Shown here: piece after piece, positions 2,708 to 28,045 of the stretch | Numbering within the stretch: position 1 is the stretch's first letter | Layout of the letters: each line of letters opens with the position of its first letter | Source of the DNA: Nitrospirota bacterium | Lineage (GTDB): Bacteria; Nitrospirota; UBA9217 | Direction of reading: 5' to 3' | Assembly (NCBI GenBank): GCA_035516965.1 | Contig: DATIZR010000012.1 | Coordinates: 1 to 37,694, forward strand | DNA: 37,694 nt | Notes under the pieces: generated by a model | Seen by the model: the letters and a program-made list of their open reading frames with translations, nothing else | What the model was told of the DNA's origin: nothing | Databases searched by the model: none | Translations under genes and position numbers: made by a program

Positions 2708-2909
2708 TCCCCTTGACAGGCGGAAAGATGCCCGTCAGCTGTCTTTCTCCACGAGCTGATGCACATGCTCAGCAGGGAGGCCGGACCAGACAGTGAAGAA
2801 CGAAACCTAAGCTGGAAAACTGAGCAGAACCCCGTGATATCCGCCGAGCAGGTCTCGGCCGGCCATGTCTCTCGTGCGAATGAATAAACGACTGAAGGAG
2901 GAGCAACAT

Positions 2910-3320
2910 ATGCAACGATCGATCTTTGCAGTGCCGACGGCGCTGGCGGAAATAATTGCGGTCCTTGTGACGCTGATGGCAGCGCCGCCAGCATTTGCGC
3001 AGACAGCAAACCCCTGTGCCAAGGACATCAAGCAATACTGCGGCTATGTCACACCGGGAGGCGGTCGCCTGGTCCGCTGCTACGAGGAGCATAAGGACAG
3101 CATGTCAGCCGACTGCAGGGCCTGGGCCGAAGGAGCGAAAGCAAACGCGGCTGTTTTGAAACAGTCGTGCTCCAAGGAGATAGACGATAACTGCAATTTC
3201 GAAAAAGGCGACCCGCTCGAGACGCTGGACTGCCTCCAGGGGCACTATCTCGCTCTATCGCCTGACTGCATAGCAAAGCTGAATGCATTCAAAGGCAGGT
3301 ATCCCAAGCCGGTGAACTAA
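2910..3320 (+). CDS. Secreted cysteine-rich repeat protein (GLG1-like repeat), copy 1
   Basis: 136 codons from the ATG at 2910, chosen because AAGGAGGAG lies just upstream; an in-frame upstream start at 2865 has no such site. A signal peptide ends near residue 30 (AFA). The mature protein has eight cysteines at 36, 44, 57, 69 and 87, 95, 108, 120: two perfect repeats of C-x7-C-x12-C-x11-C. Each repeat carries the signature of the cysteine-rich repeat known from the Golgi protein GLG1 and small bacterial secreted proteins (YC...VTPGGGRLVRC). All cysteines are probably disulfide bonded in the periplasm or outside the cell. No enzyme motif is present. It follows a beta-barrel gene and ends 16 bases before pqiA, so read-through into the lipid-transport operon is possible. 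Confidence 0.8.
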   Translation: MQRSIFAVPTALAEIIAVLVTLMAAPPAFAQTANPCAKDIKQYCGYVTPGGGRLVRCYEEHKDSMSADCRAWAEGAKANAAVLKQSCSKEIDDNCNFEKGDPLETLDCLQGHYLALSPDCIAKLNAFKGRYPKPVN

Positions 3321-9472: not shown

Positions 9473-9904
9473 CAGCTCGTCGGGTCTCTGGCGGGGGGCG
9501 GCCGGATCATAGTACAGCATGAGAGGAAATGACGCTTTTTGCGAAACGAGGTCACAATGAGGGCGGGATCACGGACCTTCTGAACACCGCGCCGGTTATG
9601 CTCAAAGCGAGGAAATCAACAAGCATTATCACAAATCATCATAATAACAATCGCGACAATAATAAGCATGTCTATTGATGTTTATGCTATATTAAATCAA
9701 GGTGTTTTATAACCTATTTTTCCATCCGGCCTTTGGATTCTTTATTCTATTTTCAATTCAGTCGTTTTACTACTATAGTTCTATCAATAACACTGATAAT
9801 CTGGCAATGCGGCGACCTGATTCGCTATCGGCACTGTCGGCATCAGAGAAACTATTATAGAATAATTTTGAGTCCTACGACAGCCATAACCAAGGATGAA
9901 AGCA
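9473..9904. other. AT-rich intergenic region upstream of the sigma-54 activator
   Basis: This 432-base gap holds no credible gene. From about 9605 to 9895 the base composition turns strongly AT-rich, unlike all surrounding genes. It contains a short direct repeat of ATAATAA near 9641-9665 and an extended -10-like element, TGC followed by TATATT (9685-9693), with no good -35 partner. A start there would leave a leader of about 200 bases. I see no sigma-54 (-24/-12) site. A 60-codon frame at 9733-9915 has no ribosome site and no protein-like composition. Confidence 0.5.
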
Positions 9905-11509
9905 ATGAATCATAAGGAAAAAGACCTGACTCAAGAGCTCAGTGAACGGCTTCGCTTTGAGACAATGCTGACGGAAATCTCGACGGGGTTTATCAATATA
10001 CCCGCGGATCAGTTGGATCGCGCGATCCTGGACTCTCAGCGCCGCGTCTGCGAATGTCTCGATCTGGATCGCTCCACGCTCTGGCAGATTTCCAAAGAAG
10101 ATCGGGACCATGTTCTGCTCACACATATTTATCAGCCGCCGGCAAGCCCCCAGCCTCCTGACCGCATGCAAGCAAAGGATTATTTCCCATGGTCACAGCA
10201 AAAGATGCTTGCCGGCGAGATTGTCGTCATTTCCAGGCTATCCGATTTCCCGCCGGAGGCTGGACGCGACCAAGAGACTTTCCGTCTCTACGAAACGAAA
10301 TCGACCGTGCTGATTCCCTTGTCAGTAGGCGGCAGTGCGATAATCGGAGCGTTGTCCTTTGCCGCCACGAGGGGAGAGCGGCACTGGTCAGACCCGCTCA
10401 TAAAACGGCTTCAACTCGTCGCTCAGATGTTTGCCAATGCGCTCGCCCGAAAAAGGGCGAACGAGGAGCTTCTCAATGTGGTGTCCGAGATAGACCTGTT
10501 GAAAAGTCGTCTTGAGGCCGAGAACGTCTATCTTCGTGAAGATATGAAAATGGTGCACAACTTCGACAAGATCGTCGGTCAGAGCGAGGCATTGCTGTAT
10601 GTTCTGTTCAGGATGGACCAGGTGGCAGGCACCGATGCGACGGTTCTTATCCAGGGAGAGACGGGCACGGGAAAGGGAGTAGTTGCTCATGCCATTCATG
10701 GCCGGAGCCCGCGCAAGGACCGGCCCCTGATCACCGTGAATTGCGCCGCTCTTCCAGCCAACCTCATTGAGAGCGAGCTTTTTGGCAGAGAGAAAGGAGC
10801 CTTCACCGGGGCTCACGCCCGGCAGATGGGGCGGTTCGAAGTCGCCGACAGGGGAACGATCTTTCTGGACGAGATCGGGGAACTGCCCCTGGAACTGCAG
10901 GCAAAGCTGCTGCGGGTGATCCAGGATGGGGAATTTGAACGGCTGGGGAGCCCACACACCATGAAAGTGGATGTCCGGATCATTGTCTCCACCAGCCGGA
11001 ATTTAACAGACGAAATTGACAAGGGCCGGTTTCGGGAGGACCTGTATTACCGGTTGAATGTTTTCCCCATCACCATTCCTCCGCTCCGGCAGCGGCGGGA
11101 TGATGTCCCCCTTCTCGTCGACCATTTCGTGAAGAAATTCAACCGAAAGATGGGAAAGGATATCGAGACGTTGCCCCGGGAAACGATGAAGGCCCTTCAG
11201 GATTATTCATGGCCCGGAAACATTCGGGAACTGGAGCATGTGATCGAACGGGCTGTGATCACTACGCAGGGATCTGTGCTGCGTTTGGCAGAGAAGGTTG
11301 ATTCCAGCCAGACCCGTGACCGAAAAAGTGGCCACATCAGCATCGCTGATGTGGAACGGGAGCATATTTTGAGGGTGCTGGAAAAAACCGAATGGCGCAT
11401 CGAAGGAAATAAGGGTGCGGCCTCTCTCTTGGACCTGAACCCGAGCACTCTGCGTTCACGAATGCAGAAGCTGGAAATATCCCGTCCTGACCGAAAAACC
11501 GACCTTTAG
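9905..11509 (+). CDS. Sigma-54-dependent transcriptional activator with N-terminal GAF domain
   Basis: 534 codons from the ATG at 9905. This start has AAGGA eight bases upstream, whereas for the ATG at 9896 the same AAGGA runs into the start codon. Domains: GAF sensor (about 10-185), short helical linker (about 185-220), AAA+ domain with Walker A GETGTGKG (251-258), the sigma-54 contact loop GAFTGA (298-303), Walker B TIFLDEIGE (318-326), the RFREDLYYRLNVF arginine-finger region (from 376), and a Fis-type helix-turn-helix (about 502-525). All residues needed for ATPase-driven open-complex formation are present. There is no response-regulator receiver domain, so the signal is probably a ligand or redox state sensed by GAF, as in FhlA- or NorR-like activators. 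Targets are not shown; the monooxygenase and the aspartate cluster downstream are candidates. Confidence 0.92.
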   Translation: MNHKEKDLTQELSERLRFETMLTEISTGFINIPADQLDRAILDSQRRVCECLDLDRSTLWQISKEDRDHVLLTHIYQPPASPQPPDRMQAKDYFPWSQQKMLAGEIVVISRLSDFPPEAGRDQETFRLYETKSTVLIPLSVGGSAIIGALSFAATRGERHWSDPLIKRLQLVAQMFANALARKRANEELLNVVSEIDLLKSRLEAENVYLREDMKMVHNFDKIVGQSEALLYVLFRMDQVAGTDATVLIQGETGTGKGVVAHAIHGRSPRKDRPLITVNCAALPANLIESELFGREKGAFTGAHARQMGRFEVADRGTIFLDEIGELPLELQAKLLRVIQDGEFERLGSPHTMKVDVRIIVSTSRNLTDEIDKGRFREDLYYRLNVFPITIPPLRQRRDDVPLLVDHFVKKFNRKMGKDIETLPRETMKALQDYSWPGNIRELEHVIERAVITTQGSVLRLAEKVDSSQTRDRKSGHISIADVEREHILRVLEKTEWRIEGNKGAASLLDLNPSTLRSRMQKLEISRPDRKTDL

Positions 11510-11590: not shown

Positions 11591-11922
11591 TGCGCACTGA
11601 CAAGTCTTCCCACCCATTATGCATTCTTTCCTGGAGCATTAAATGTATTTCAAAGACTTACCAGGCTTGGATGCATGAGAAAACCTCAGGCACGATGTTT
11701 GTAATGTGTTCTTTGTTCTCCTCATTTCCCATTCAATGATAAGTATTGTGTGCAACAAGCTGGACATCGACACCGGAGACAGGCATGTTCCTTGAGGAGA
11801 GCCCATGCCGCATTGATCCGGATTGTCCTGGAACGAACAGCGGAGCCCCCGGAAAGTGCCGGATGTCAGAGGATTGAGATACTGAAGAATCTGATCAACG
11901 TGTGAAGAGGAAGGAGCGTGTC

Positions 11923-12246
11923 ATGGTCACTACCTCGATTAGAATGACGGTGCCAAAGGAAAAGCGTCAGGAAGTGCTGCAGACGGTAAGTACGCTAACC
12001 GGAACGATGCGAAAGGAGATCGGCTGCCGGGCCTGTGATTTCTACATTGACACCGAGAACGCAGACACGTTTCTCCTGGTTGAAGAATGGGATGCCCAGG
12101 AGGACTTCGACCGCCACGTTCGCGCACCGGCATTCAGCGCGCTGCTCGGGGCAATGACGCTGCTGCACCAGAGGCCGGATGTCCGGATCAACTCGGTCGC
12201 GGAAACGGCCGGAATGGAGAAGATCAAGGCCCTGCGGGCGGCATGA
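11923..12246 (+). CDS. Antibiotic-biosynthesis-monooxygenase (ABM) domain protein, YgiN-like
   Basis: 107 codons from the ATG at 11923; AGGAAGGAG ends six bases upstream, making this better than the in-frame GTG at 11902, which lies before that site. It has the compact ABM ferredoxin-like fold pattern: an N-terminal strand (SIRMTVPKEKRQEVL), the central GC...FYID segment, and the family signature of a strand ending in EEW followed by a helix and His (FLLVEEWDAQEDFDRHV). Family members include cofactor-free quinol monooxygenases such as YgiN and small heme-degrading or peptide-modifying enzymes. Many are stress-related and their substrates cannot be read from sequence. It stands alone between the activator and the antiporter gene, 113 bases upstream of the latter. 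Confidence 0.75.
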   Translation: MVTTSIRMTVPKEKRQEVLQTVSTLTGTMRKEIGCRACDFYIDTENADTFLLVEEWDAQEDFDRHVRAPAFSALLGAMTLLHQRPDVRINSVAETAGMEKIKALRAA

Positions 12247-12359: not shown

Positions 12360-14042
12360 ATGGATTGGATCGTCAAGACCCTTCAGCAATACCCGGAGCT
12401 GGCGATCTTCCTGACGCTGGCTCTCGGCTACTGGATCGGCAGCTTCAAGTTCGGGAAGTTCAATCTCGGGGCGGTGACGGGTGTATTGCTTGCCGGGGTC
12501 CTCATCGGCCAGATGCACATCACCATTTCACCGAATGTAAAATCGGTCTTCTTCCTGATGTTCCTCTTTGCCGTCGGCTATGCGGTCGGGCCCCAGTTCT
12601 TCCGCGGCCTGAAGAGCGACGGTGTGCCGCAGGTCATTTTTGCAGTGCTCCAGTGCGTCGCCTCCCTGGCGACGGCATACATCGTCGCCAGGTTCCTGGG
12701 CTACGACGTCGGTGCTGCGGCGGGGCTCCTGTCCGGTTCCCAGACAATTTCCGCTGTGCTCGGCGTTGCCACGGACGCCGTCAATCAGCTCAGCATCCCG
12801 GCTGAGGAAAAGACAAAGTTCATAAACCAGATGCCGGTCGCGTATGCCGTGACCTACATCTTCGGCACCGCAGGCTCTGCGTGGCTCCTGGCGTCCATCG
12901 GGCCCAAGCTGCTCCGTGTGGACCTCCCGGCGGAGTGCAAGAAGCTCGAAGCCAAGATGGGCGGAACAGAGGCAGAGCCCGGGGTCATCAGTATGGCCCG
13001 CAAATTCGATGTGCGAGCCTACCGCGTGACCAATCAGAACCTTGTGAACAAGACCGTTGCGGAACTCGAAGCGCTCCCCAAGGAAGCGCGTGTCTTCATC
13101 GTGCGGGTCCGCCACGCAGGCGTGGTCATCGAACCGGAGCCAGCGACGATCATTCAGCACGATGACGTGGTCGCCGTGGCCACCCGGCAGGAGATTCATG
13201 TGGAGCGGGGGACCTTGATCGGACCCGAGGTCGACGATAGGGAGCTGCTCGATTTTCCGGCGGCGGCGCTCGACGTGGTGATAACGAACAAGTCTCTCGC
13301 CGGAAAGACCCTTGCTGAAGTAGCGGCCGACAAGGAAAAGGCCCGCGGCGTATTTTTACGAAAGCTCGTGCGTGGGGGACAGGAGATGCCCTTCACGCCG
13401 GGCACCACCCTTGATCGCGGCGACGTGCTGACCCTGGTAGGAGTCAAACGTGATGTCGAGCGGGTGGCAAAGGAGATTGGATACGCCGATCGTCCCACGA
13501 ACATGACCGACATGGTCTTCGTCGGTGTGGGCATCGTGCTGGGCGGCCTCGTAGGCGCCCTGACGATCCGACTCGGCGGCATCCCCCTGAGCCTCAGCAC
13601 GAGCGGCGGTGCGCTCATGGCCGGGCTCGTGTTCGGCTGGCTCCGGTCGGTGCATCGCACCTTCGGCCGAATCCCGGCGCCGGCGCTTTGGATCCTGAAC
13701 AACGTAGGCCTCACCATCTTTATCGCCGTGGTGGGCATCAGCGCCGGCCCGAGCTTTGTAGCAGGCCTGAAAGAAGCCGGAGTGAGTCTGTTCCTCGCCG
13801 GCATCGTGGTGACCTCGGTCCCCCTGATCATAGGCGTGCTGATGGGCAAATATATCTTCAAGTTCCACCCGGGCATCAACCTCGGCGCCTGCGCAGGCGC
13901 CCGGACAACGACGGCGGCCCTGGGCATGATCGAAGATGTCGCAAAAAGCAAGGTGCCCGCCCTCGGATATACCGTTACCTATGCCGTCGGCAACACTCTG
14001 CTGACGATCTGGGGTCTGGTGATCGTGTTACTCATGGCATGA
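12360..14042 (+). CDS. Aspartate:alanine antiporter-type transporter (AspT family), copy 1
   Basis: 560 codons with AAAGGAG seven bases before ATG. Two hydrophobic bundles (about 12-190 and 385-560) flank a soluble region with two RCK_C/TrkA_C domains (about 213-275 and 303-365). This is the layout of the AspT / aspartate:alanine exchanger family, which also includes YidE and YbjL. The symmetric re-entrant-type motifs read SGSQTIS (125-131) and [12 protein letters not shown] (511-522). In Tetragenococcus AspT swaps external aspartate for internal alanine electrogenically. The aspartate 4-decarboxylase gene follows after 27 bases, which is the classical partner and strongly supports the assignment. 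A second paralog of identical length lies at 17091 with different motif residues. Confidence 0.85.
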
Positions 14043-14069
14043 TCTTCTTGCACGAGAAAGGAGCATTCT

Positions 14070-15722
14070 ATGACAGTCAAGACCAGGAAGTCCAAGACGT
14101 CCCGCGCGGAGCAGAAGGAACTGCTCAAGCTGAGCCCTTTCGAGCTTAAGGACAAGCTCATATCGCTCGCCGCAGAGAGCGAACGGGAGAGCGACGCGCA
14201 GATGCTGAACGCCGGCCGCGGCAATCCCAACTGGATCTGCACCACACCGCGTGAGGCCTTCGGCACGCTTTTGCGGTTCGGCATCGAAGAGTCGAAGCGC
14301 GGCACCAGCATTCCCGATGCCGGCCGCATGCCGGAGAAGAAGGATATCGCGAAGCGCTTCGACGCATTCCTCGATACCAACAAAGCCGCTCCCGGAGCAA
14401 AGCTCCTCCGTGACTCCTTCGACTACGGCGTGAAAACGCTCCAGTTCGATCCCGATGCCTTCGTTCATGAGCTTACCGAGGGCATCATCGGCTGCATGTA
14501 TCCGGTGCCGGACCGGATGGCGCGCTGCACCGAGCGGATCGTGCACGAATATCTCGACCAAGAGATGTGCGACGGGAAGCCGCCTGCAGGGAGGTTCGAT
14601 ATTTTCGCGGTCGAAGGCGGCACGGCGGCAATGTGCTACATCTTCGACTCCCTGATGCTCAATCACCTGCTGCGCCGCGGCGACACCATCGCGCTCGGCG
14701 TGCCGACGTTCACGCCGTACATCGAGGTCCCGCATTTCGACCGCTACGCCTTCAAGGTCGTGAACGTCGACGCGAGCACGGAATTGCGCAAGGACGGCAC
14801 CCACACATGGCAGTACTCGGACAAGGAGATCGACAAGCTGGCCAACAAGCGCATCAAGGCGTTCTTCCTCGTCAATCCGAGCAATCCGCCGTCCTTTGCC
14901 ATGCGTGAAAGCTCGCTCAAACGGCTCGTCAGGCTCGTAAAGACGAAGCGGCCCGACCTGATCATCATCACCGACGATGTCTACGGCACCTTTGTGCCGG
15001 GGTTCCGGTCGCTGATGGCCGAGCTGCCGCAGAACACCATCGGCGTCTATTCCTACTCCAAGCACTTCGGGTGCACCGGTTGGCGGCTTGGGGTCGTTGC
15101 CGTTCACCAGAACAACATCTTCGACAAAATGCTGGCGAAACTGCCTGCCAGGGACCGTGCCGTGCTCAACCGCCGCTACAGCAGCATTTCCCTCACGCCG
15201 GAGAAATTGAAGTTCATCGACCGAATGGTGGCGGACAGCCGCCAGGTTGCGCTGAACCACACTGCCGGCCTGTCGCTGCCCCAACAGGTCCAGATGGCAC
15301 TGTTCTCCCTGTTCGCGCTGCTCGATAAGGCGAACAGCTACAAGACGCTCTGCCAGCTCATCGTGCGCCGGAGGTACCAGGCTTTCTGGGAAGGCCTCGC
15401 GATCCCGTCGCCGCCCGATGAGGACCGGGCATACTATTACGCGGAACTCGATCTCATGGTCTGGGCCGAAAAGGTTTATGGCCCCGATTTCGTGAAGTTC
15501 CTCAGGAAGAACTACGAATGCACGGACGTCCTGTTCCGCATTGCAGAGAAATCAGGCGTTGTGCTGATGCACGGCGGCGGTTTCGGCGGACCGGACTGGT
15601 CGGTCAGGGTGTCACTTGCCAACCTGCCGGAGGACACGTACCCGAAGATCGGCAAGTACCTCAGGGAGGCGGCAGAAGGCTACGTCGAGGAGTGGAAGGT
15701 ATCAACGGCGAAAAAGAAGTAA
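14070..15722 (+). CDS. asdA: Aspartate 4-decarboxylase (bifunctional with aspartate aminotransferase)
   Basis: 550 codons, close to the roughly 530 usual for this enzyme, with GAGAAAGGAG just before ATG. It is a PLP fold-type I enzyme: phosphate-binding EGGTAAM (182-188), substrate loop NPSNPPS (269-275), TDDVYG with the pyridine-N aspartate (301-306), and the Schiff-base lysine K331 within YSYSKHFGCTGWRLG. The N-terminal extension and the SKHFGCTGWRLG context mark the L-aspartate beta-decarboxylase family rather than ordinary aminotransferases. Reaction: L-aspartate to L-alanine plus CO2, consuming a cytoplasmic proton, with a side transaminase activity. It is cytoplasmic, with no signal peptide. 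Its place between two AspT-like antiporters and next to asparaginase indicates an Asn/Asp-to-Ala catabolic and energy-conserving role. Confidence 0.92.
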   Translation: MTVKTRKSKTSRAEQKELLKLSPFELKDKLISLAAESERESDAQMLNAGRGNPNWICTTPREAFGTLLRFGIEESKRGTSIPDAGRMPEKKDIAKRFDAFLDTNKAAPGAKLLRDSFDYGVKTLQFDPDAFVHELTEGIIGCMYPVPDRMARCTERIVHEYLDQEMCDGKPPAGRFDIFAVEGGTAAMCYIFDSLMLNHLLRRGDTIALGVPTFTPYIEVPHFDRYAFKVVNVDASTELRKDGTHTWQYSDKEIDKLANKRIKAFFLVNPSNPPSFAMRESSLKRLVRLVKTKRPDLIIITDDVYGTFVPGFRSLMAELPQNTIGVYSYSKHFGCTGWRLGVVAVHQNNIFDKMLAKLPARDRAVLNRRYSSISLTPEKLKFIDRMVADSRQVALNHTAGLSLPQQVQMALFSLFALLDKANSYKTLCQLIVRRRYQAFWEGLAIPSPPDEDRAYYYAELDLMVWAEKVYGPDFVKFLRKNYECTDVLFRIAEKSGVVLMHGGGFGGPDWSVRVSLANLPEDTYPKIGKYLREAAEGYVEEWKVSTAKKK

Positions 15723-15779
15723 ATGGACCAATGTATGCTGTCAGTCAAATGTGACCAAACAGATAAAGGAGGGACTACC

Positions 15780-16853
15780 ATGAACAGAACTGCATTGAAC
15801 ACGTTCAGGAGCGTTTTAATTGCAGTTGTCGCATTATTGCTGATCGCGTCGACTGCGCAGGCCAAGCCGAAGATAATGATCCTCGCCACGGGCGGCACCA
15901 TCGCAGGCGCGCAGGCGAGCACGGCCGAGGCCGGCTACAAGTCAGGCAGTTTCTCCGTCGATGACCTCATCAAGGCGGTGCCCCAGCTCAAGGACCTTGC
16001 GGACATTTCCGGGGAGCAGGTGGCCAACATCGGCAGCCAGACCATGAACCACGAGGTGTGGCTGAAGCTCGCAAAGCGGGTCAATGAGGTGCTCAAGGGC
16101 GACGTCGACGGGGTGGCCATCACCCACGGCACGGACACGATGGAGGAAACGGCCTACTTCCTCAGCCTCGTGGTGAAGAGCGAAAAGCCGGTCGTCCTGG
16201 TGGGGTCCATGCGGCCCGCCACGGCTATCGGCGCGGACGGCCCGGCGAACCTCTATGACGCGGTCGCGCTGGCCGCCAATCCGGAAGCAAAGGGACGCGG
16301 CCCGCTTGTCGTGCTGAACGATGAGATACACTATGCCCGGGAGGCGCAGAAGACGAACAGCACGGCGCTGGACACATTCAAGTCGCCGAACCGCGGCCGC
16401 GCCGGCGTCATGAACACGGGCAAAGCCTATTTCTTCAACACCAACACCACTGTCCACACCACGAAGAGCGAGTTCTCCGTGGAAGGCAAGGCGGAGAAAG
16501 ACCTGCCGTGGGTGGAGATCGTGTATTCGTATGCCAACTTCGGTCGTGACACCATCGACTTCCTTGTCAGCAAGGGGGTGAAAGGCATCGTGCTCGCCGG
16601 CGTGGGCGACGGGAACAGCACCGATACGGCGATCGCCGCGCTTGCGGAGGCGGCCAAGAAGGGTGTCGTCGTTGTACGTTCCACACGTGTGGGCAGCGGC
16701 CTCATCGTTCGCAATGTGGAAGTGAACGACGACAAACTGGGGTTCATTACCGCGATGGAGCTCAATCCCCAGAAGGCACGCATCCTGCTCATGCTTGGTC
16801 TTATGAAGACCAACGACCCCAAGAAGCTGCAGGAGCTTTTCATGAAGTACTGA
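15780..16853 (+). CDS. ansB: Periplasmic L-asparaginase, type II
   Basis: 357 codons from the ATG at 15780, preceded by AAAGGAGGG; the upstream in-frame ATG at 15723 abuts the asdA stop and lacks a site. A signal peptide of about 28 residues ends AQA. Catalytic motifs are intact: ATGGTIAG with nucleophile Thr40, and HGTDTMEETA (116-125) with Thr118 and Asp119. The GSMRP...ADGP...LY substrate loop and the C-terminal LNPQKARILL segment also match E. coli AnsB. Reaction: L-asparagine to L-aspartate plus ammonia in the periplasm. It would feed aspartate to the AspT-type exchangers on either side. The export signal and sequence similarity favour the high-affinity type II enzyme over the cytoplasmic type I. 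Confidence 0.93.
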   Translation: MNRTALNTFRSVLIAVVALLLIASTAQAKPKIMILATGGTIAGAQASTAEAGYKSGSFSVDDLIKAVPQLKDLADISGEQVANIGSQTMNHEVWLKLAKRVNEVLKGDVDGVAITHGTDTMEETAYFLSLVVKSEKPVVLVGSMRPATAIGADGPANLYDAVALAANPEAKGRGPLVVLNDEIHYAREAQKTNSTALDTFKSPNRGRAGVMNTGKAYFFNTNTTVHTTKSEFSVEGKAEKDLPWVEIVYSYANFGRDTIDFLVSKGVKGIVLAGVGDGNSTDTAIAALAEAAKKGVVVVRSTRVGSGLIVRNVEVNDDKLGFITAMELNPQKARILLMLGLMKTNDPKKLQELFMKY

Positions 16854-16923
16854 GTCGCTGCGGCGGGTCCAACATTTCCTGACCCGGCCATGCCGGACGC
16901 TAAAGGCCGGAAGCGAAGGGCAT

Positions 16924-17032
16924 ATCTCGCGGAGCGTGCGGAGGACGCAGAGCATTAAAGCAATAACCGGAAGGTCTTCCATGGCTGATTGTTATCTTGA
17001 TTTTCTCTGCGTGCTCAGCGTTTCCGCGAGAT
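16924..17032. repeat. Imperfect long inverted repeat, dispersed-repeat-like intergenic element
   Basis: The left arm (16924-16952) begins ATCTCGCGGA and ends GACGCAGAG. The right arm (17005-17032) begins CTCTGCGTGCTCAGCG and ends TCCGCGAGAT. The arms are largely reverse complementary, with mismatches in the middle, around a loop of about 50 bases. Sequences of this CTCTGCG...TCCGCGAGA type recur between genes in many environmental bacterial genomes, from memory. No transposase is present. It separates asparaginase from the second antiporter. Confidence 0.55.
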
Positions 17033-17090
17033 AGCTGGTTTGCCGCTTTGTTAAGAATTTGAATTGTTCGTTATTACGGAGGCCGGAGGC

Positions 17091-18773
17091 ATGGACTATT
17101 TTGTGAAGGCTCTTCAGGACCATCCTGAGCTTGCCATTTTTCTGGCTCTCGCCCTGGGATTCTTCATCGGCCGGATCAAGATCGGGTCGTTCAGCCTCGG
17201 GAACGTGGTGGGCACCCTGCTGGCGGGCGTTGTCATCGGCCAGCTCGATGTCAAGGTCCCTGAGATCGTGAAGACCATCTTCTTCGACCTCTTCCTCTTC
17301 ACGACCGGGTACAAGGTCGGTCCCCAGTTCTTCCGTGGGCTGAAGAAGGACGCCCTGTCCCAGGTCGCGGTCACGATCGTACTGTGCGTCACCTGTCTGC
17401 TTTCCGCCTTCACGGTCTCGAAGCTCCTCGGATACGACGTAGGAACAGCGGCGGGTCTGCTGGCCGGCGCCTTCACGGAATCCACGGTCATCGGCACGGC
17501 GAGCGACGCCATCAATCGTCTCAGCATCCCGGCAGGGGAGAAGACCCGGCTCATGAACAACATTCCGGTCGCCTACGCGGTCAGTTACCTCGTCGGCACC
17601 GCCTTTGTCGTGTGGTTCCTGTCGAGTTTTGCACCGAGATTGATGCGGGTCAACCTGCGGGAGGAGGGGAAAAAACTGCAGGCAAAGTTCTTGGGCGGAG
17701 AGGAGCAGGAGCCCGGCGTGCAATCCGCCTTCCAGAGCTTCGGGGTCCGGGCGTACCGCGTTACCAACGAGAGGCTCGTGAACAAGACAGTCTCGGAAAT
17801 CGAAGCAATGCCCAGGGAGATGAGGGTCTTTATCTCGCGGGTCCGCCAGGGCGGCGAGATCATCGAGCCCGAGATGACAACGGTCATTCATCAAGGGGAC
17901 GTGGTCGCGGTGATGACCCGCAACGAAGCCCTCATGGCGCGGGGCACCGAGATCGGCCCCGAAGTGGACGACAGGGCACTCCTCGATTTTCCCCAGGAGT
18001 TCCTGGACGTGGTGATCACGAACAAGGCCGTGGCCGGGAAGTCCCTCAGGGAGCTGGCTGCATTCGAGTTTGCCCGCGGTATCTTTTTGCAGAAGCTTTT
18101 ACGCGTGGGAGAGCCGATGCCGTTCACTCCCGAGACCCGCGTTGACCGGGGCGATGTGATGATGATCGTCGGCGCAAGGCGCGATGTCGAACGGGCGGCG
18201 AAGGAACTGGGGTACGCCGACCGGCCGACGAGCGCCACCGACATGATCTTCGTGGGATCGGGCATCGTTCTCGGGGGGCTGGTCGGCCTGCTCTCTATAA
18301 CGTTCGGCAAGCTGCCGATTTCCCTCACGGCGAGCGGCGGCGCGCTGGTCATGGGCCTCATATTCGGCTGGCTCAGGGCCGTGCGTCCGACCTTCGGCCG
18401 CATTCCGGAGCCTGCGATGTGGGTCTTCGACACGGTCGGGCTCACGACTTTCATTGCCGTTGTCGGTCTGGGGGCCGGCCCCAGCTTCATCGCCGGGCTC
18501 AAGCAATCCGGCATCAGCCTCGTCTTTGTGGGATTGCTGGTGGCAGTGCTGCCTCACATCACAGCGATCCTTTTCGGACGATACGTCTTGAAGATGAATC
18601 CCCTGATCCTCCTGGGCGCGTGCTCGGGAGCGGGGACGGTCACGGCGGCGCTGCGGGCAATCCAGGATGAGGCGCATAGCAAGATCCCGGTACTGGGCTA
18701 TACGGTTCCCTACGCCATCGGGAACATCCTGCTGACGGCATGGGGCCCGGTCATCGTGGCCATGATGGCATGA
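17091..18773 (+). CDS. Aspartate:alanine antiporter-type transporter (AspT family), copy 2
   Basis: 560 codons from the ATG at 17091, with GGAGG upstream; an in-frame TTG at 17064 gives only an unsupported extension. It is collinear with copy 1 at 12360 without apparent length change: two membrane bundles around two RCK_C domains. The paired transport motifs differ: AGAFTES (125-131) in place of SGSQTIS, and CSGAGTVTAALR (511-522) in place of [12 protein letters not shown]. These spots correspond to the symmetric substrate-path loops of the family, so the two copies probably differ in substrate or affinity; Asp/Ala for one and another dicarboxylate or amino acid for the other is possible. It is separated from asparaginase by a repeat element and may have its own promoter. 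Confidence 0.83.
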   Translation: MDYFVKALQDHPELAIFLALALGFFIGRIKIGSFSLGNVVGTLLAGVVIGQLDVKVPEIVKTIFFDLFLFTTGYKVGPQFFRGLKKDALSQVAVTIVLCVTCLLSAFTVSKLLGYDVGTAAGLLAGAFTESTVIGTASDAINRLSIPAGEKTRLMNNIPVAYAVSYLVGTAFVVWFLSSFAPRLMRVNLREEGKKLQAKFLGGEEQEPGVQSAFQSFGVRAYRVTNERLVNKTVSEIEAMPREMRVFISRVRQGGEIIEPEMTTVIHQGDVVAVMTRNEALMARGTEIGPEVDDRALLDFPQEFLDVVITNKAVAGKSLRELAAFEFARGIFLQKLLRVGEPMPFTPETRVDRGDVMMIVGARRDVERAAKELGYADRPTSATDMIFVGSGIVLGGLVGLLSITFGKLPISLTASGGALVMGLIFGWLRAVRPTFGRIPEPAMWVFDTVGLTTFIAVVGLGAGPSFIAGLKQSGISLVFVGLLVAVLPHITAILFGRYVLKMNPLILLGACSGAGTVTAALRAIQDEAHSKIPVLGYTVPYAIGNILLTAWGPVIVAMMA

Positions 18774-18849
18774 GCGAAAAGGAAGCATGATGTGACAATC
18801 GGACCGGAAGTCGAAAGTGAGACCTTGAGAAGAAAGGAGTCATAATAAT

Positions 18850-20013
18850 ATGAAACCGAAAACCGCAATAGGTAAAGGAGTCGTCATTGCTCTTCTCGCG
18901 CTCATCTGCACGGGCGGGCAGGTTCGCGCCGAGGACAAGGCGCATGTGGATGTTTACGGTTTTATCCAACTTGACGCCATCTATGACTTCAACCGCGTCA
19001 ATCCCGACTGGAACGCCGCGCTGCGGCCTACCCAGATCCCCATCGACCCGGTTGGCAAGGACGGAGAAACCATCTTCAGCGTCAAGCAGTCGCGGTTCGG
19101 CGTCAATGGCTTCATCCCCACCGAACTGGGCGAGCTCAAGACGAAGTTCGAGTTCGATATGTTCGGCGTTGGTGTCGACGCAGGCCAGACCACGATCCGG
19201 CTGCGCCATGCCTACGGAGAGATCGGCCAATTCCTTGCGGGCCAGACCAACAGCCTGTTCATGGACATCGACATATACCCCAACACCATCGAATACTGGG
19301 GCCCGGCGGGCATGATCTTCTACCGCAATGTCCAGGCACGGTGGACGTTCCTGAAGCAGGGCGGCATGAAAGCGGCTGTCGCGATTGAACGGCCGGGTTC
19401 GGCCATCGACGCGGGGCAGATCAACGTCCTGGATCCCTCTTTTGCGGCCAATATTCACAGCTGGAACAAATACCCGGACCTCACCGGGCAGTACCGTATG
19501 GACGGGTCCTGGGGCCACTTCCAGGCGGCCGGCATCCTGCGCTGGCTCGGCTACGATACGCCCGATGGGAGCGTGTCGGGCCATAAGACCGGATGGGGAG
19601 CCAACCTGAGCGGAGCCGTGCATACCGTGGGGAAAGACAGCGTCCTGGCGCAGGTCGCCTACGGAGAGGGCATCGCGAACTACTTCAATGACGGCGGCAA
19701 CGACCTGGCCCCCCTCAGCAGCATCGGCGGCGCCGAGGCGCTCCCCATACTCGGACTGGTCCTCTACTACGACCGGTACTGGAGCGACAAATGGAGCAGT
19801 TCGATCGGCTACAGCGAGACGTCTCAGCACAATTCCGGAGGACAAGCGGCGACAGCGTTCACCAAAGGCCAGTACGCCTCGGTGAACCTGCTGCACTACC
19901 CGGCGAAGAACGTGATGGTAGGCGGCGAGTTCCTCTGGGGCAAACTCGAGGAGAAAGACGGCAAGAGCGGGCATGATAACCGTATCCAGTTCTCGTCGAA
20001 GTTTAACTTCTGA
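18850..20013 (+). CDS. DcaP-like trimeric outer-membrane porin
   Basis: 387 codons, with AGAAAGGAG upstream of ATG. A signal peptide of 27 residues ends VRA. The mature protein opens with a typical strand (VDVYGFIQLDAIYDF). It then carries the DcaP-family hallmarks: SRFGVNGF, GELKTKFEFDMFG, RLRHAYGEIGQFLAGQTNS, and FMDIDIYPNTIEYWGPAGM. It ends in SSKFNF, with a C-terminal Phe. DcaP proteins are trimeric porins for negatively charged small molecules such as dicarboxylates. Lying after the antiporter, it is well placed to admit aspartate or asparagine into the periplasm. The family call is firm; the substrate is inferred from context. Confidence 0.85.
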   Translation: MKPKTAIGKGVVIALLALICTGGQVRAEDKAHVDVYGFIQLDAIYDFNRVNPDWNAALRPTQIPIDPVGKDGETIFSVKQSRFGVNGFIPTELGELKTKFEFDMFGVGVDAGQTTIRLRHAYGEIGQFLAGQTNSLFMDIDIYPNTIEYWGPAGMIFYRNVQARWTFLKQGGMKAAVAIERPGSAIDAGQINVLDPSFAANIHSWNKYPDLTGQYRMDGSWGHFQAAGILRWLGYDTPDGSVSGHKTGWGANLSGAVHTVGKDSVLAQVAYGEGIANYFNDGGNDLAPLSSIGGAEALPILGLVLYYDRYWSDKWSSSIGYSETSQHNSGGQAATAFTKGQYASVNLLHYPAKNVMVGGEFLWGKLEEKDGKSGHDNRIQFSSKFNF

Positions 20014-20192
20014 CATGCTCGCGTCGCCGGCTCGTCTGTGAGCGACCTGTCCGGCGGCTCTATAAGGTGTGTCGCCGATGCATTCAACTCTCGGGAGCCG
20101 GGGATTACGGCCGCGGGATTGATCAAGACCTGTATGGCAGGCAGCTTACAGCAATAATGTTGAGAAGTTTATTTTCCTCCGGGAGGTGTTCC

Positions 20193-21431
20193 ATGAGCTG
20201 CAAGACGCAGCGACTGACAAGCAGTACGTCCTTCATGCAGATATTCGCACGGCCCGTTCTTGGTTTCATGCTGCTCGTCCTGGCCGGGACGTCGATCCAC
20301 GGATGCAAAAAAGAAGCAACGGTCAGCGGTCCGCCGGACGTGGAAGTCGTTGATGTTGTCAAACAGGACGTGCAGGTGCAAAAGGAGTGGGTGGGCAGCA
20401 TGGACGGATCGGTCAACGCTGTGATCCGAGCGCAGGTCCAGGGCTACCTGACCAAGCAGGTCTATACCGAGGGGCAGCTTGTCAAAAAAGGACAGACGCT
20501 GTTCCAGATTGATCCCCGGACCTTCCAGGCCGCAGTGAACCAGGCCAAGGCTGATGTTGCGCAGAAGAAGGCGCGGTGGGACCAGACCCAGGCGAACCTG
20601 GCGCGCATCAAGCCGCTGGCCGAGCAGAATGCGGTGAGCAAGAAGGATCTTGATGACGCGATCGGGAACGAAGCGTCGGCGCATTCCGCTTATGATGCGG
20701 CGAAGTCCGCCCTGGACAAGGCGCAGCTCGACCTTGGATTCACGCGGATCACCTCGCCCATCGATGGCGTCGCGGGTGTCGCCAAGGCCCAGATCGGGAA
20801 CCTCGTGGGGCCGGGAACGGTCGAAGAGCTGACCACGGTCTCGACCGTCGATCCGATCAAGGTCTGGGTCCCGATCAGCGAGCAGGAGTTCCTCCATGCC
20901 CAGGCGAGCAGGCCGGCGCCTGGCCAGCCCAAGCGGAAGATCGAGCTGATCCTTGCGGACGGCAGCGTCTATCCGAAGACGGGCGAGTTCGCTTTTGCGG
21001 ACCGGCAGGTGGACGCTTCGACCGGAACGCTCAAAGTCGCGGTCCTTTTCCCGAATCCCGGGAACGTGCTCCGACCGGGGCAGTATGCCAGGGTCCGCGC
21101 GGTCATGGAGACCGTCCCGGGGGCGCTCGTGGTGCCGCAGCGCGCCGTGAACGAGCTTCAGGGTAATTTCCAGGTGGCGGTCGTCGGTTCTGACAACAAG
21201 GTTTCGCTCAGGACCGTGAAGCCGGGCGTCAAGACGGGTTCCCTCGTGGTGATCTCCGACGGTCTGCAGCCCGGGGAGCGCATCGTGGTCGAGGGCCTGC
21301 AGAAGGTAAAGGACGGCATGACCGTCAATCCCAAGCTGGTGTCCCTGGCAACGCCGACAGTGCAGCAGACTGCTCCTTCGTCGCAGCCCACCCCGTCCGA
21401 TATGCCCGTCGCGGGCCACGAGCAGAGGTAA
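20193..21431 (+). CDS. RND efflux membrane-fusion lipoprotein (AcrA/MexA family)
   Basis: 412 codons from the ATG at 20193, which has GGGAGG six bases upstream; the frame stays open further 5' but lacks ribosome sites. An N-terminal export signal leads to a possible lipobox IHGC at about residue 33. Then come the biotinyl-lipoyl half motif (AQVQGYLTKQVYTEGQLVKKGQ), an alpha-hairpin (about 105-165), the second lipoyl half (LGFTRITSPIDGVAG) and the beta-barrel and membrane-proximal domains. It is the periplasmic adaptor linking the inner-membrane pump at 21436 to the channel at 24579, four bases before the pump gene. No local TetR-type repressor gene is seen, unlike many acrAB loci. Confidence 0.9.
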   Translation: MSCKTQRLTSSTSFMQIFARPVLGFMLLVLAGTSIHGCKKEATVSGPPDVEVVDVVKQDVQVQKEWVGSMDGSVNAVIRAQVQGYLTKQVYTEGQLVKKGQTLFQIDPRTFQAAVNQAKADVAQKKARWDQTQANLARIKPLAEQNAVSKKDLDDAIGNEASAHSAYDAAKSALDKAQLDLGFTRITSPIDGVAGVAKAQIGNLVGPGTVEELTTVSTVDPIKVWVPISEQEFLHAQASRPAPGQPKRKIELILADGSVYPKTGEFAFADRQVDASTGTLKVAVLFPNPGNVLRPGQYARVRAVMETVPGALVVPQRAVNELQGNFQVAVVGSDNKVSLRTVKPGVKTGSLVVISDGLQPGERIVVEGLQKVKDGMTVNPKLVSLATPTVQQTAPSSQPTPSDMPVAGHEQR

Positions 21432-21435
21432 CGTC

Positions 21436-24400
21436 ATGGTCAATTTTTTCATCAACCGGCCCATCGTGGCCATCGTGATCTCGATCATCATCGTCATCGT
21501 CGGCATCGTCTCGATCCTCGGCCTCCCCATTGCCCAGTACCCGAACATCGTGCCGCCCGAAATGGTGATCGACACCACCTATGTGGGCGCCGACGCCCAG
21601 ACCGTGGAGCAGTCCGTTGCCACGCCCATCGAGCAGGAGATGAGCGGGGTGGACAACATGAACTACATGTACTCGCTCAACGCGAACAACGGGCAGATGA
21701 AGATGTACGTCAACTTCGACGTGAAGACGGACCCGAACATCGACCAGGTGCTGGCCCAGATGCGCCAGAGCCAGGCCGCGGCCAAGCTTCCGTCCGATGT
21801 CCGCAACTACGGCGTCACGGTCAAGAAGTCCACGTCGTCGCCGCTCATGGTCGTCTCGCTCGTTTCGCCTAAAGGGACCTACGACGACGTGTTCCTGGCC
21901 AACTACGCCAACATCAACATCAATGATCAGCTCACGCGCGTGCCCGGCATCGCCAGCGTCACCGTATTCGGCGCCGGCCAGTACGCCATGCGCGTCTGGG
22001 TGCGGCCCGACCGGCTTGCGACCCTGAACATCACTATCCCTGAGATCACCGCGGCCATCCAGAAGCAGAACACCGTGAACCCGGCCGGCAAGGTGGGCGC
22101 CGAGCCCGCGCCGCCGGGCATGGAGTTCACCTACGCGGTCCGAGCCCAGGGACGGCTCGTGACGCCCGAGGAGTTCGGCCAGGTGGTCTTGAGGGCCAAT
22201 CCTGACGGATCGCTTGTGCGGCTCAAGGACGTGGGCCGCATCGAGCTCGGCGCCCAGACCTACGAGATGAAGGGCAGACTGAACGGGAAACCTGCCGCTG
22301 TGCTCGGCCTGTACCAGCTTCCCGGCACGAACGCCATCAATGCCGTGGACGGCGTCAAAAAACTGATGGCCGAGGTCAGCAAAAACTTTCCGCAGGACCT
22401 GGAGTACGTGATCTCCCTGGACACGACCGAGGCGGTTCGCGAAGGCATCAACGAGATCATGCACACGCTCGTCGAGGCCCTCATCCTCGTGATCATCGTG
22501 GTCTTCATCTTCCTCCAGGGCTGGAGGGCCACGCTCATCCCGGCCCTGGCCGTGCCGGTCTCGCTCATCGGGACCTTTGCCTTCTTCCCGGTCATCGGGT
22601 TCTCGATCAACACGATCGCCCTCATGGGTATGGTGCTCGCCATCGGACTGGTGGTGGACGACGCCATCGTGGTGGTGGAGGCGGTGGAACATCACATCGA
22701 GAAGGGTAAGACGCCGAAAGAAGCTGCCATCAAGGCCATGGAAGAGGTGGCCGGTCCCGTTGTTGCCATCGGACTCGTGCTGTCGGCGGTGTTCCTTCCG
22801 ACCGTGTTTATCCCGGGCATCACGGGCAGGCTCTACCAGCAGTTCGCGGTAACCATCGCCATCTCGATGATGATCTCGGTCTTTGTGGCATTGTCGCTCA
22901 GCCCGGCGCTTTCGGCCCTGATCCTGAAGCCGAGAAAAGAGGCGCGCGGCCTGCTCGGGAAGTTCTACGCCTGGTTCAACGACATGTTCGGCAAGTCGAC
23001 GAACGGGTATGTTCGCGCCTGCGGCATCCTGATCCGAAAATCAGCAATGAGCCTCATCTTCCTCGGCATCATCACGCTGCTGGTCGCCGTACTGGGCAAG
23101 GGGCTGCCGGGAGGGTTCCTGCCCGAGGAGGACCAGGGCTATTTCTACGCAGGCATCCAACTGCCGAACGCCTCGTCGCTCCAGCGGACCGACGCGGCGG
23201 TCAAGGACATGGAAAAGATCATCATGGAGACGCCGGGCGTGGCGTACTGCACCAGCATCATGGGATACAGCATGCTGAGCGGCGTGGTGAACACCTACAG
23301 CGGGTTCTTCTTTGTCACCCTGAAGCCTTGGGGCGAACGAAAGGCCTCTGAGGAAAAGTATGTCAACCTCCTAGCAGGCCTGAACGCCAGGCTTGCCAAA
23401 CTTCCGCAGGGCGTGGCCTTCGCCTTCTCGCCCCCGGCGATCCCGGGCATCGGCACCGCGGGAGGTGTGACCTTCCTGCTCGAGGACCGGGCGGGCAGGG
23501 ACATCGCCTTCCTTGCCCGGAACACCCAGAAGTTCATGGCTGAGGCGGTCAAACGGCCCGAGATCGCACGCGCCTCGACGACCTTCCTGCCCACGGTGCC
23601 GCAGCTCTTCATCAACGTGGACCGCGACAAGGTGTTGAAGCAGGGCGTTGATCTGCAGAACGTTTACGGCACGCTCCAGGCCTTCATGGGCGGCGCCTTT
23701 GTGAACTACTTCAACCGCTTCGGCAGGCAGTGGCAGGTTTACGTACAGGCCGAGGGCGACGCGCGCGTGAGGGCCGAGCAGCTCGGCCAGTTCTATGTAC
23801 GCAACAGCAAGGGCCAGCCGGTTCCGCTGTCGGCGCTTACGAGCATCGAAGAGCGGTCGGGGCCCGAGTTCACCATGCGGTACAACCTGTACCGATCCGC
23901 GCAGATCAACGTCACGCCCAAGCCGGGCTACAGCTCGCTCCAGGCCATGAAGGCGCTCGAGGAGGTTTTTAAGGCGACGATGCCGCAGGAGATGGGCTAC
24001 GACTACCTCGGCATGTCCTACCAGGAGAAGAAGGCCCAGGAAGGCGTACCGGCGTCGGTTGTCTTCGCGCTATCGCTGCTCTTCGTCTTCCTGATCCTGG
24101 CGGCGCAGTACGAAAGCTGGTCGCTGCCCTTTAGTGTGCTCATGGGCACGCCGATCGCGGTGTTCGGCGCCTTTGCCGCCGTCTTCGTCGGCCGGATGGA
24201 GCTGAACATCTACGCCCAGATCGGCCTCGTCATGTTGATTGGCCTGGCTGCGAAGAACGCCATCCTGATCGTGGAGTTCGCGAAGATCGAGTACGACAAG
24301 GGGAAGAGCGCCGAGGACGCGGCCCTGGAAGGAGCCAAGCTCCGGCTGCGGCCGATCCTGATGACCTCCTTCGCCTTTATCCTGGGATGCGTGCCCCTCG

Positions 24401-24579
24401 CCCTTGCGTCGGGCGCCGGCGCGCTGTCACGGAACGTCATGGGCCTGGCCGTGATCGGCGGCATGCTTGCCGCCACGGGTATCGGCGTGTTCCTCATCCC
24501 CGTGACCTTCACGGTGATCGAAAAACTGTCCCATCGCGGCGAGAAACACGGCGGCACAGCGGGAAAGGATGGACATTGA
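21436..24579 (+). CDS. RND multidrug efflux pump, inner-membrane subunit (AcrB/HAE1 family)
   Basis: 1047 codons, the length of AcrB (1049). It starts with the standard FFINRPIVAIVISIIIVIVG helix. The proton-relay residues are intact: D408 and D409 in GLVVDDAIVVVE, and K940 in GLAAKNAILIVEF. The two periplasmic porter and docking halves lie between the membrane blocks. The family role is proton-driven, trimeric export of hydrophobic drugs, solvents or bile-salt-like compounds directly to the outside. Its gene stop overlaps the start of the outer-membrane factor gene by one base, so the three genes form one operon. Substrate range cannot be read from the sequence. Confidence 0.95.
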   Translation: MVNFFINRPIVAIVISIIIVIVGIVSILGLPIAQYPNIVPPEMVIDTTYVGADAQTVEQSVATPIEQEMSGVDNMNYMYSLNANNGQMKMYVNFDVKTDPNIDQVLAQMRQSQAAAKLPSDVRNYGVTVKKSTSSPLMVVSLVSPKGTYDDVFLANYANININDQLTRVPGIASVTVFGAGQYAMRVWVRPDRLATLNITIPEITAAIQKQNTVNPAGKVGAEPAPPGMEFTYAVRAQGRLVTPEEFGQVVLRANPDGSLVRLKDVGRIELGAQTYEMKGRLNGKPAAVLGLYQLPGTNAINAVDGVKKLMAEVSKNFPQDLEYVISLDTTEAVREGINEIMHTLVEALILVIIVVFIFLQGWRATLIPALAVPVSLIGTFAFFPVIGFSINTIALMGMVLAIGLVVDDAIVVVEAVEHHIEKGKTPKEAAIKAMEEVAGPVVAIGLVLSAVFLPTVFIPGITGRLYQQFAVTIAISMMISVFVALSLSPALSALILKPRKEARGLLGKFYAWFNDMFGKSTNGYVRACGILIRKSAMSLIFLGIITLLVAVLGKGLPGGFLPEEDQGYFYAGIQLPNASSLQRTDAAVKDMEKIIMETPGVAYCTSIMGYSMLSGVVNTYSGFFFVTLKPWGERKASEEKYVNLLAGLNARLAKLPQGVAFAFSPPAIPGIGTAGGVTFLLEDRAGRDIAFLARNTQKFMAEAVKRPEIARASTTFLPTVPQLFINVDRDKVLKQGVDLQNVYGTLQAFMGGAFVNYFNRFGRQWQVYVQAEGDARVRAEQLGQFYVRNSKGQPVPLSALTSIEERSGPEFTMRYNLYRSAQINVTPKPGYSSLQAMKALEEVFKATMPQEMGYDYLGMSYQEKKAQEGVPASVVFALSLLFVFLILAAQYESWSLPFSVLMGTPIAVFGAFAAVFVGRMELNIYAQIGLVMLIGLAAKNAILIVEFAKIEYDKGKSAEDAALEGAKLRLRPILMTSFAFILGCVPLALASGAGALSRNVMGLAVIGGMLAATGIGVFLIPVTFTVIEKLSHRGEKHGGTAGKDGH

Positions 24580-26024
24580 TGAAAAGGCGGCTGATCATTT
24601 TTTCATTGACGCTGCTCCTGCTTACGGGATGCGCCATCGGTCCCGACTACCGGAGACCGGAGATCGAGCCGCCGCCAGCATGGCAGGTTGGCATACAGCA
24701 GGCGCAGGAAACGGCGAACACGGCATGGTGGGAGCAGTTCAACGACCCCGTGCTGAACGAACTGATCGGGACATCGCTCAGAGAGAACTACGACCTCCGT
24801 GTCGCCACGGCCCGGGTCGTGGAGTTCTACGGACTGTACGGCGCGACGCGCGCGGACCTGTTCCCGCAGGTCGGCTACGACGGGAGCGCCGGCAGAACGC
24901 ATTCTACCTCGAAGGGTCCTATCCCGATCGTGGGGGGACGGAACTACAGTCTTTACCAGGCCGAGTTCAACGCGAGCTGGGAGATCGACCTCTGGGGTAA
25001 GGTCAGGCGAGCGACCGAGGCTGCGAAGGCGGACCTCCTCTCCGCCGAGGATGCCCGGAGCGGCGTGATCCTGTCGCTTGTTACGTCAATGGCGACGGCG
25101 TACATCGACCTGCGGTCGCTCGACCAGCAGCTCGAGATCGCCCGGAAGACCGCCAAGAGCCGCGAGGAATCAGTAAGGCTCTTTGAGCTCCGGTTCAAAG
25201 GCGGCAACATCTCGGAGATGGAGCTGAGCCAGGTCCGTTCGGAATACTATGTTGCCCTGGCTGCGATCCCGGACCTGGAAAAGCGTGTCAGGCAGCAGGA
25301 GAGCTTCATCAGCATCCTGCTCGGCAGGAACCCCGGACCCATCCTTCGGGGCAGGGCGCTCGACGATATCGCATTGCCGGTCATTCCGGCCGGCATGCCG
25401 TCCGACCTGCTGATGCGCCGTCCCGATGTCCGCCAGGCCGAGCAGAACCTCATCGCTGCGAACGCGCGCATCGGCGTGGCAAAGGCGCAGTACTTCCCGT
25501 CAATCTCGCTCACGGGCTTCTTCGGGTCGGTCAGCACACAGCTCAAGGACCTCTTCACCGGTCCGGCTGGGGCCTGGAGCTATGCGGGCGCCCTTGCGGG
25601 CCCGATCTTCACGGCCGGAAAGATCAAAGGGACCGTAAAGGCCGCCGAGGCCGTCCAGCAGGAAGCATTGTTCGGATATGAGTCCGCGATCCAGAACGGG
25701 TTCCGCGAGTTCGAGGACGCGCTCATCGACCAGGACCGGACGCGTGTGCAACTCGACGCGCAAGCGAAGCAGGTCGAAGCGCTTGCGACCTATGCCCGGC
25801 TGGCGCGTCTTCGCTACGAGAACGGCTACACGAGCTACATCGAAGTGCTGGACGCCGAACGAAGCCTCTTTAACGCTCAGCTCTCGTATGCCCAGACGCA
25901 GGACTCGCTCCTGCGCGCACTCATCAACCTCTACAAGGCCATGGGCGGCGGGTGGGTCGTGGAAGCCGACAAACAGTCGCAGCCGCCTGCAGCGGCATCG
26001 CAGCCGGTCGGCGGGAAGAAATAA
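24579..26024 (+). CDS. Outer-membrane efflux channel lipoprotein (OprM/NodT family)
   Basis: 481 codons. The ATG overlaps the last base of the pump stop codon, with GGGAAAGGA as ribosome site. A lipoprotein signal ends in LTGC, with Cys18 lipidated. The mature start CAIGPDYRRPEIEPP is typical of NodT-type factors. Two outer-membrane-efflux repeats follow (about 55-245 and 270-460), including the MRRPDVRQAEQNLIAANARIGVAKA signature spread around residues 273-297. It forms a trimeric barrel plus tunnel that completes the tripartite pump with the adaptor at 20193 and the transporter at 21436. The C-terminus is a short Gln/Pro/Ala tail. Confidence 0.93.
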   Translation: MKRRLIIFSLTLLLLTGCAIGPDYRRPEIEPPPAWQVGIQQAQETANTAWWEQFNDPVLNELIGTSLRENYDLRVATARVVEFYGLYGATRADLFPQVGYDGSAGRTHSTSKGPIPIVGGRNYSLYQAEFNASWEIDLWGKVRRATEAAKADLLSAEDARSGVILSLVTSMATAYIDLRSLDQQLEIARKTAKSREESVRLFELRFKGGNISEMELSQVRSEYYVALAAIPDLEKRVRQQESFISILLGRNPGPILRGRALDDIALPVIPAGMPSDLLMRRPDVRQAEQNLIAANARIGVAKAQYFPSISLTGFFGSVSTQLKDLFTGPAGAWSYAGALAGPIFTAGKIKGTVKAAEAVQQEALFGYESAIQNGFREFEDALIDQDRTRVQLDAQAKQVEALATYARLARLRYENGYTSYIEVLDAERSLFNAQLSYAQTQDSLLRALINLYKAMGGGWVVEADKQSQPPAAASQPVGGKK

Positions 26025-27646: not shown

Positions 27647-28045
27647 ATGTTCAAAACACCCGGCATCGGAAAACGGTGTTCTGTGATCCCGGCAGCAGTG
27701 CTTGCAACCTTGGCCCTTGCTCTGACGGTGCAGGCCCAGGTCGCGGGTCCCTGTGCCGAGACGATCTCCAAGTTCTGCGGGAATGTGACGCCGGGAGAGG
27801 GCCGCCTATTGAAATGCCTCAACGAACACCGGGGCGACCAGAGCATCGCCTGCCAAGACTGGCTCGATGCCCAGCAGAAGAGCCTGCAGGAGATGAACGT
27901 GGCCTGTTCAGAAGAGATCGCCCGATTGTGCAGTTTCGATCCTCCCGACGGCATCCGTATCTTTCGATGCCTCCAGGACAACTACGTTGCCCTGAGGCTC
28001 GACTGCCGCGCAAAGCTGCGGGAGATCAAGGAGCGGGCCCGGTGA
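27647..28045 (+). CDS. Secreted cysteine-rich repeat protein (GLG1-like repeat), copy 2
   Basis: 132 codons with GAGGAGGAAAGG upstream of ATG. The signal peptide ends near residue 30 (VQA). The eight mature cysteines fall at 36, 44, 57, 69, 87, 95, 108 and 120, exactly the positions found in copy 1 at 2910, giving two C-x7-C-x12-C-x11-C repeats. The first repeat shows the characteristic FCGNVTPGEGRLLKC. It lies 105 bases after a beta-barrel gene and upstream of two lipoproteins of the WKD family. Probable location: disulfide-bonded in the periplasm or on the outer face. There is no enzyme signature; binding to the neighbouring barrel or to a metal or other ligand is speculative. Confidence 0.8.
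   Translation: MFKTPGIGKRCSVIPAAVLATLALALTVQAQVAGPCAETISKFCGNVTPGEGRLLKCLNEHRGDQSIACQDWLDAQQKSLQEMNVACSEEIARLCSFDPPDGIRIFRCLQDNYVALRLDCRAKLREIKERAR

Follow-up and report, generated by a model that had tools for sequence, protein, structure and literature searches.

A Nitrospirota gene cluster that probably feeds an aspartate decarboxylation cycle from the periplasm and carries two classes of AspT-family exchanger

The five genes at positions 12360-20013 of a 37,694-nucleotide stretch of Nitrospirota DNA (the window, contig C12 of a genome of 3.8 Mb in 120 contigs) probably encode a periplasm-fed aspartate decarboxylation cycle able to generate proton-motive force or to counter acid, in which the second of two AspT-type exchangers would represent a second exchanger class working on a shared periplasmic pool. 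Such a cluster would supply a complete outer-membrane-to-cytoplasm asparagine route for a decarboxylation cycle elucidated with free aspartate in a Gram-positive bacterium. All five genes are intact and lie on the + strand, in the order aspT1, aspD, ansB, aspT2, dcaP; they are given here with a hairpin and a possible regulator.

9896..11509, + strand: possible regulator, a GAF-AAA-Fis sigma-54-dependent activator upstream of the cluster (PF00158, PF01590, PF02954)
12360..14042, + strand: aspT1, AspT-type exchanger of the AAEx family, predicted Asp(in)/Ala(out) antiporter (TIGR03802, PF06826 twice, TrkA_C twice)
14070..15722, + strand: aspD, PLP-dependent L-aspartate 4-decarboxylase (TIGR03801)
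15780..16853, + strand: ansB, exported type II L-asparaginase with predicted Sec signal peptide (TIGR00520)
16922..17034, + strand: long imperfect hairpin in the ansB-aspT2 gap (fold energy)
17091..18773, + strand: aspT2, second AspT-type exchanger, of a different clade (TIGR03802, tree)
18850..20013, + strand: dcaP, DcaP-type outer-membrane porin with signal peptide (PF19577)

The assignment of these genes is supported by profile matches, all five products scoring above the curated family cut-offs, so that the names and the order given in a preliminary description of this DNA (AspT, decarboxylase, exported asparaginase, AspT, DcaP-like porin) stand as written. AspT1 and AspT2 reach 717 and 669 bits, respectively, against TIGR03802 (cut-off 547), and AspT1 also matches the solved AspT structure 8xw5 over its full length (E 8e-64). 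AspD scores 781 bits against TIGR03801 (cut-off 435) and matches the solved structure 2zy5 with an E value of 1.7e-155; in the alignment, K17, R37, Y134, K315 and R497 of 2zy5, which we take to be the PLP and substrate residues, are all conserved, as K27, R50, Y144, K331 and R513. For AnsB, at 437 bits against TIGR00520 (cut-off 314), the nearest entries in the PDB are 9bad and the asparaginase 1wsa, both matched at about 1e-102 with 345-346 bits, while glutaminase-asparaginases reach about 297 bits at best. The alignment to 1wsa shows the TGGTIAG and THGTDTMEET motifs preserved in AnsB; catalytic residues are retained in both enzymes. For the folds of AspT, AspD and asparaginase, these matches to solved structures are conclusive.

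The ansB open frame begins at 15723, with the true start most likely at 15780, preceded by the ribosome-binding site AAAGGAGGG; site and start were chosen by comparison with a second copy of the cluster on contig C92, described below. Read from 15780, the protein opens, by eye, with a Sec signal peptide whose last residues are STAQA, which bears out the earlier prediction of export. DcaP scores 97 bits against PF19577 (cut-off 27) in a match that begins at profile position 64, the N-terminal part of the model being missing; its signal peptide is likewise seen by eye, and it matches the solved structure 6eus weakly across its length (E 3e-10). Genes for DcaP, type II asparaginase and AspT-family proteins are confined, across this genome, to the cluster and to C92, in keeping with the description of the porin as a dedicated one.

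In the cycle that we propose, the DcaP porin, whose selectivity is predicted, would admit asparagine (and aspartate), and exported AnsB would convert periplasmic asparagine to aspartate and ammonium. AspT1 would then take periplasmic aspartate(1-) in and release cytoplasmic alanine(0), a net inward transfer of one negative charge, and AspD would turn aspartate into alanine and CO2 with consumption of one cytoplasmic proton; the net result per asparagine would be the equivalent of one proton expelled. AspT2 would share the periplasmic pool of acidic amino acids, possibly with another exchange partner. The precedent, correctly named in the preliminary description, is the proven proton-motive pair of Tetragenococcus halophilus, in which electrogenic Asp/Ala exchange together with AspD generates proton-motive force (PMC9508256). 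That description had also called the cycle asparagine-driven, and of this the supply of asparagine survives but the drive does not: amide hydrolysis outside the inner membrane moves no charge, so any proton-motive force would come from the Asp/Ala step, and because the amide-bond energy is dissipated outside, asparagine would be a source of aspartate and not an extra driver. The substrates of both exchangers, the selectivity of the porin, co-transcription and the physiological purpose are the parts of this scheme that we infer. Energy, acid resistance and nitrogen supply are all ends that this one chemistry can serve.

The gaps between successive genes measure 27, 57, 237 and 76 bp. A single transcript across all five is plausible; scans for sigma-70 promoters and terminators gave no clear operon boundary. 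The hairpin at 16922-17034, a 151-nt fold of -62.4 kcal/mol (z -3.4), may modulate or separate transcription between ansB and aspT2; no second copy occurs in the window, and a repeat element was therefore ruled out. Regulation of the cluster by the sigma-54-type activator at 9896..11509 is possible, and no such activator was seen beside the corresponding islands of two relatives, G162 and G182. As for a sigma-54 promoter upstream of aspT1, this candidate was rejected, the window holding 33 -24/-12 sites against 36.7 expected by chance.

If the set served chiefly to scavenge nitrogen and carbon, asparagine would yield ammonium and alanine with proton-motive force as a by-product, much as proposed for Actinobacillus succinogenes, where periplasmic AnsB, encoded in a neighbouring cluster (ansB-aspA-dcuA), would supply an aspartate exchanger (PMC10634366), and a sigma-54-type activator upstream would suit such a role. 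However, alanine exported in exchange would be wasted carbon and nitrogen, the link from activator to cluster is putative, the window shows no excess of sigma-54 sites over chance, and we consider scavenging improbable as the chief purpose.

Several neighbouring genes may be recorded here. A small ABM-domain protein (PF03992) is encoded at 11902-12246, between the activator and aspT1. Directly downstream of the cluster, at 20067-26024, lies a complete RND efflux operon (adaptor, pump and NodT-type outer membrane factor), and adaptor and pump genes also adjoin the cluster copy on C92. Three further small proteins of the window match the Pfam repeat Cys_rich_FGFR (PF00839), at 2865-3317, 27647-28042 and 30503-30913.

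Contig C92 (L013, 9258 bases) carries a partial second copy of the cluster, at 79-84% DNA identity to the window, comprising the end of aspD, then ansB, aspT2, dcaP, a PF03458 gene and the beginning of the RND efflux operon seen in the window. The PF03458 'glycine transporter' (UPF0126-type) gene, at 4854-5528 of C92, separates dcaP from the RND adaptor gene there and is absent from the window. C92 either stems from a segmental duplication or belongs to a sister species binned with this genome; the contamination estimate for the genome is 2.95%. Between window and C92, dN/dS (NG86) is about 0.06 for aspD, 0.07 for ansB, 0.10 for aspT2 and 0.18 for dcaP, values which imply that all four genes are under purifying selection. 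The copy also bears on the start of aspT2, most likely at 17091 after GGAGGC, which is in register with that of the C92 homologue (L013 1768).

Within the phylum, aspD is rare, occurring in 4 of 396 genomes and then in two more from the class of G182. Of these six carriers, five (the window's own genome, G162, G182, G506 and G510) have the order aspT1-aspD-ansB-second exchanger-dcaP, with other genes intervening between aspT1 and aspD in G182. The sixth, G353, has aspT-aspD alone, so the five-gene set is not obligatory. Because four other genomes of the phylum share the order and dN/dS against C92 is low, we judge the set to be more than a chance association.

A longer island is present in G162 and G506, reading OKR-type decarboxylase, aspT1, aspD, ansB, second exchanger, exported glutaminase, dcaP. 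This arrangement recurs in G510 with frame breaks, its okr and ansB (L142) being split into several frames through decay or assembly error, and G182 retains okr and glutaminase as remnants only. The OKR-type protein of these relatives is a relative of Rv2531c (9n0o, 740 bits), the activity of which is described as unknown (PMC12910592). Rv2531c-like OKR decarboxylases lie beside aspT/aspD at L030 4522-7335, L141 3916-6714 and L034 7724-9943, and the neighbouring glutaminase and second AspT are hints of an acidic amino acid substrate for this protein family. The glutaminases at L030 13740-14912 and L141 13997-15050 have Sec-type signal peptides and are probably periplasmic. The relatives point in this way to glutamine- and glutamate-using sister modules.

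Such islands raise the possibility that acid resistance is the main function, with periplasmic ammonia released by the amidases, protons consumed inside by the decarboxylases, the exchangers trading acidic amino acids for the products formed from them, and energy conservation secondary. For the relatives, the additional decarboxylase and glutaminase would speak for acid resistance or for the use of acidic amides in general, since both are found with the same genes in all four (as remnants only in G182), and glutamate decarboxylase lies beside the second exchanger in Acidobacterium L033 and between aspD and ansB in L032. The window's genome, on the other hand, yielded neither a glutaminase nor an OKR decarboxylase, and one acidophile had L-aspartate decarboxylase at pH 5.0 and not at pH 3.9 (PMC8982180). 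The chemistry is, moreover, identical to that of proton-motive force generation, from which sequence cannot separate it, and we hold acid resistance as the main function to be a substantial possibility that falls somewhat short of an even chance. The wider reading, a periplasm-fed cycle that could serve either end, is the one that we carry forward.

The preliminary description counted two antiporters, and both are indeed AspT-family proteins by TIGR03802, 61% identical to each other; AspT2 is nevertheless no spare copy, as it falls in another clade and bears a different residue signature. In a tree of 49 exchanger proteins, some deep branches of which are long or weakly supported, AspT1 groups with the aspT1 products of G162 and G182 inside a many-phyla clade of aspD partners, and second exchangers fall into several other lineages, including AspT2 outside the AspT1 clade. 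Leu67 and Arg495 (numbering of T. halophilus AspT) are present in all 64 of 64 AspT1-class proteins, AspT1 included, with Arg495 in the second-repeat motif GARTTT; none of 22 second exchangers has Arg495, T. halophilus AspT has Asp there, and AspT2 carries Gly495 and Asp67 in place of the AspT1-class pair. In the stretch with these residues, T. halophilus AspT (Asp67, Arg76, TQS) resembles AspT2 (Asp67, Lys76 and TES in place of TIS) more than AspT1, and R76 in TM3 of the T. halophilus protein is replaced by Ala in AspT1 and by Lys in AspT2. PF06826 proteins have two re-entrant helices within two similar repeats (PMC8396727), and repeat alignment would place the positions around 130 and 495 in them. 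The two classes are thus separable by a simple residue signature, directly testable given the AspT structures in the PDB.

Since clade and signature differ, the two exchangers are probably functionally distinct. The predicted Asp/Ala substrates of AspT1 come from gene context, because AspT1 lacks R76 and has Arg495 where the proven T. halophilus AspT has Asp. Neither the tree nor the signature supports aspT2 as a simple recent duplicate of aspT1, and orthology of the window's aspT2 to the second exchanger of the relatives was rejected at 46-47% identity and with separate clades in that tree, a few of whose deep branches are long or of weak support. A redundant AspT2, exchanging Asp for Ala and merely adding capacity, would account for the TIGR03802 score above cut-off and the 61% identity, but not for a position outside the AspT1 clade, for the change of Leu67 to Asp and Arg495 to Gly at positions invariant in 64 AspT1-class proteins, or for the different lineages that occupy the second slot elsewhere; we rather doubt it, while granting it real weight. 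Several AspT lineages fill that slot, in some cases adjoining glutaminase or glutamate decarboxylase; Asp:Ala exchange is thus not a given for AspT2, whose substrate pair may differ. As a partner for AspT2, a glutaminase or OKR decarboxylase was sought in the rest of the genome, and none was found. More tentatively, and with the balance of our judgement against it, the island family might be a modular system that deamidates outside, exchanges, and decarboxylates inside, the second AspT-class exchanger having a pair other than Asp:Ala (for example Glu:GABA beside glutaminase, gad or an OKR-type decarboxylase). AspT2 would then be an AAEx-family exchanger of undescribed specificity that several lineages had recruited independently.

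Beyond the phylum, we surveyed the best 80 named loci from a single genome_contigs scan, a capped sample and not a census. Asparaginase lies near aspD in 29 of these 80, nearly always with a signal-peptide-like N terminus, and in 22, mostly Bacteroidota, aspT is present too. A second AspT-family exchanger occurs at 18 of the 80 (Alcaligenaceae, Actinomycetota, Acidobacteriota), and DcaP stands beside the set at two, both Acidobacteriota; Acidobacterium L033, for example, reads aspD-aspT-dcaP-second exchanger-glutamate decarboxylase. All five genes together were found at none of the best 80. The suggestion that an asparagine version of the cycle is undescribed must accordingly be narrowed: the aspT-aspD-exported asparaginase core is, by these gene neighbourhoods, widespread, and what we regard as new is the five-gene arrangement together with the second class of exchanger. 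In the open-access literature we found no publication coupling asparaginase to AspT/AspD, in searches one of which was so worded that it could miss 'aspartate:alanine'.

The closest functional model is the asp operon of T. halophilus, described as aspD plus aspT (PMC9527358), which likewise joins an aspartate 4-decarboxylase to an AspT-family exchanger in a proton-motive decarboxylation cycle (PMC9508256). The window shares the conserved decarboxylase residues and a linked AspT-family exchanger, 27 bp upstream of aspD, but adds an exported asparaginase, a second exchanger and a porin, and its AspT1 differs from the T. halophilus protein in lacking R76 and having Arg495. Bacteroidota clusters (Flavobacterium, Chitinophaga, Pedobacter, Dysgonomonas) share the three-gene core, whereas neither a second exchanger nor a DcaP porin was found in the DNA examined. 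The islands of G162, G182, G506 and G510 match the window in gene order and differ in the OKR-type decarboxylase upstream and the exported glutaminase before dcaP, both reduced to remnants in G182, and in a second exchanger that is not orthologous to the window's aspT2. The A. succinogenes ansB-aspA-dcuA cluster relies on aspartase and fumarate respiration, not decarboxylation, and DcuA belongs to an unrelated exchanger family. In that cluster, too, a periplasmic asparaginase II feeds an aspartate antiporter from within one gene cluster (PMC10634366), making it the nearest published parallel that we found for the periplasmic feed.
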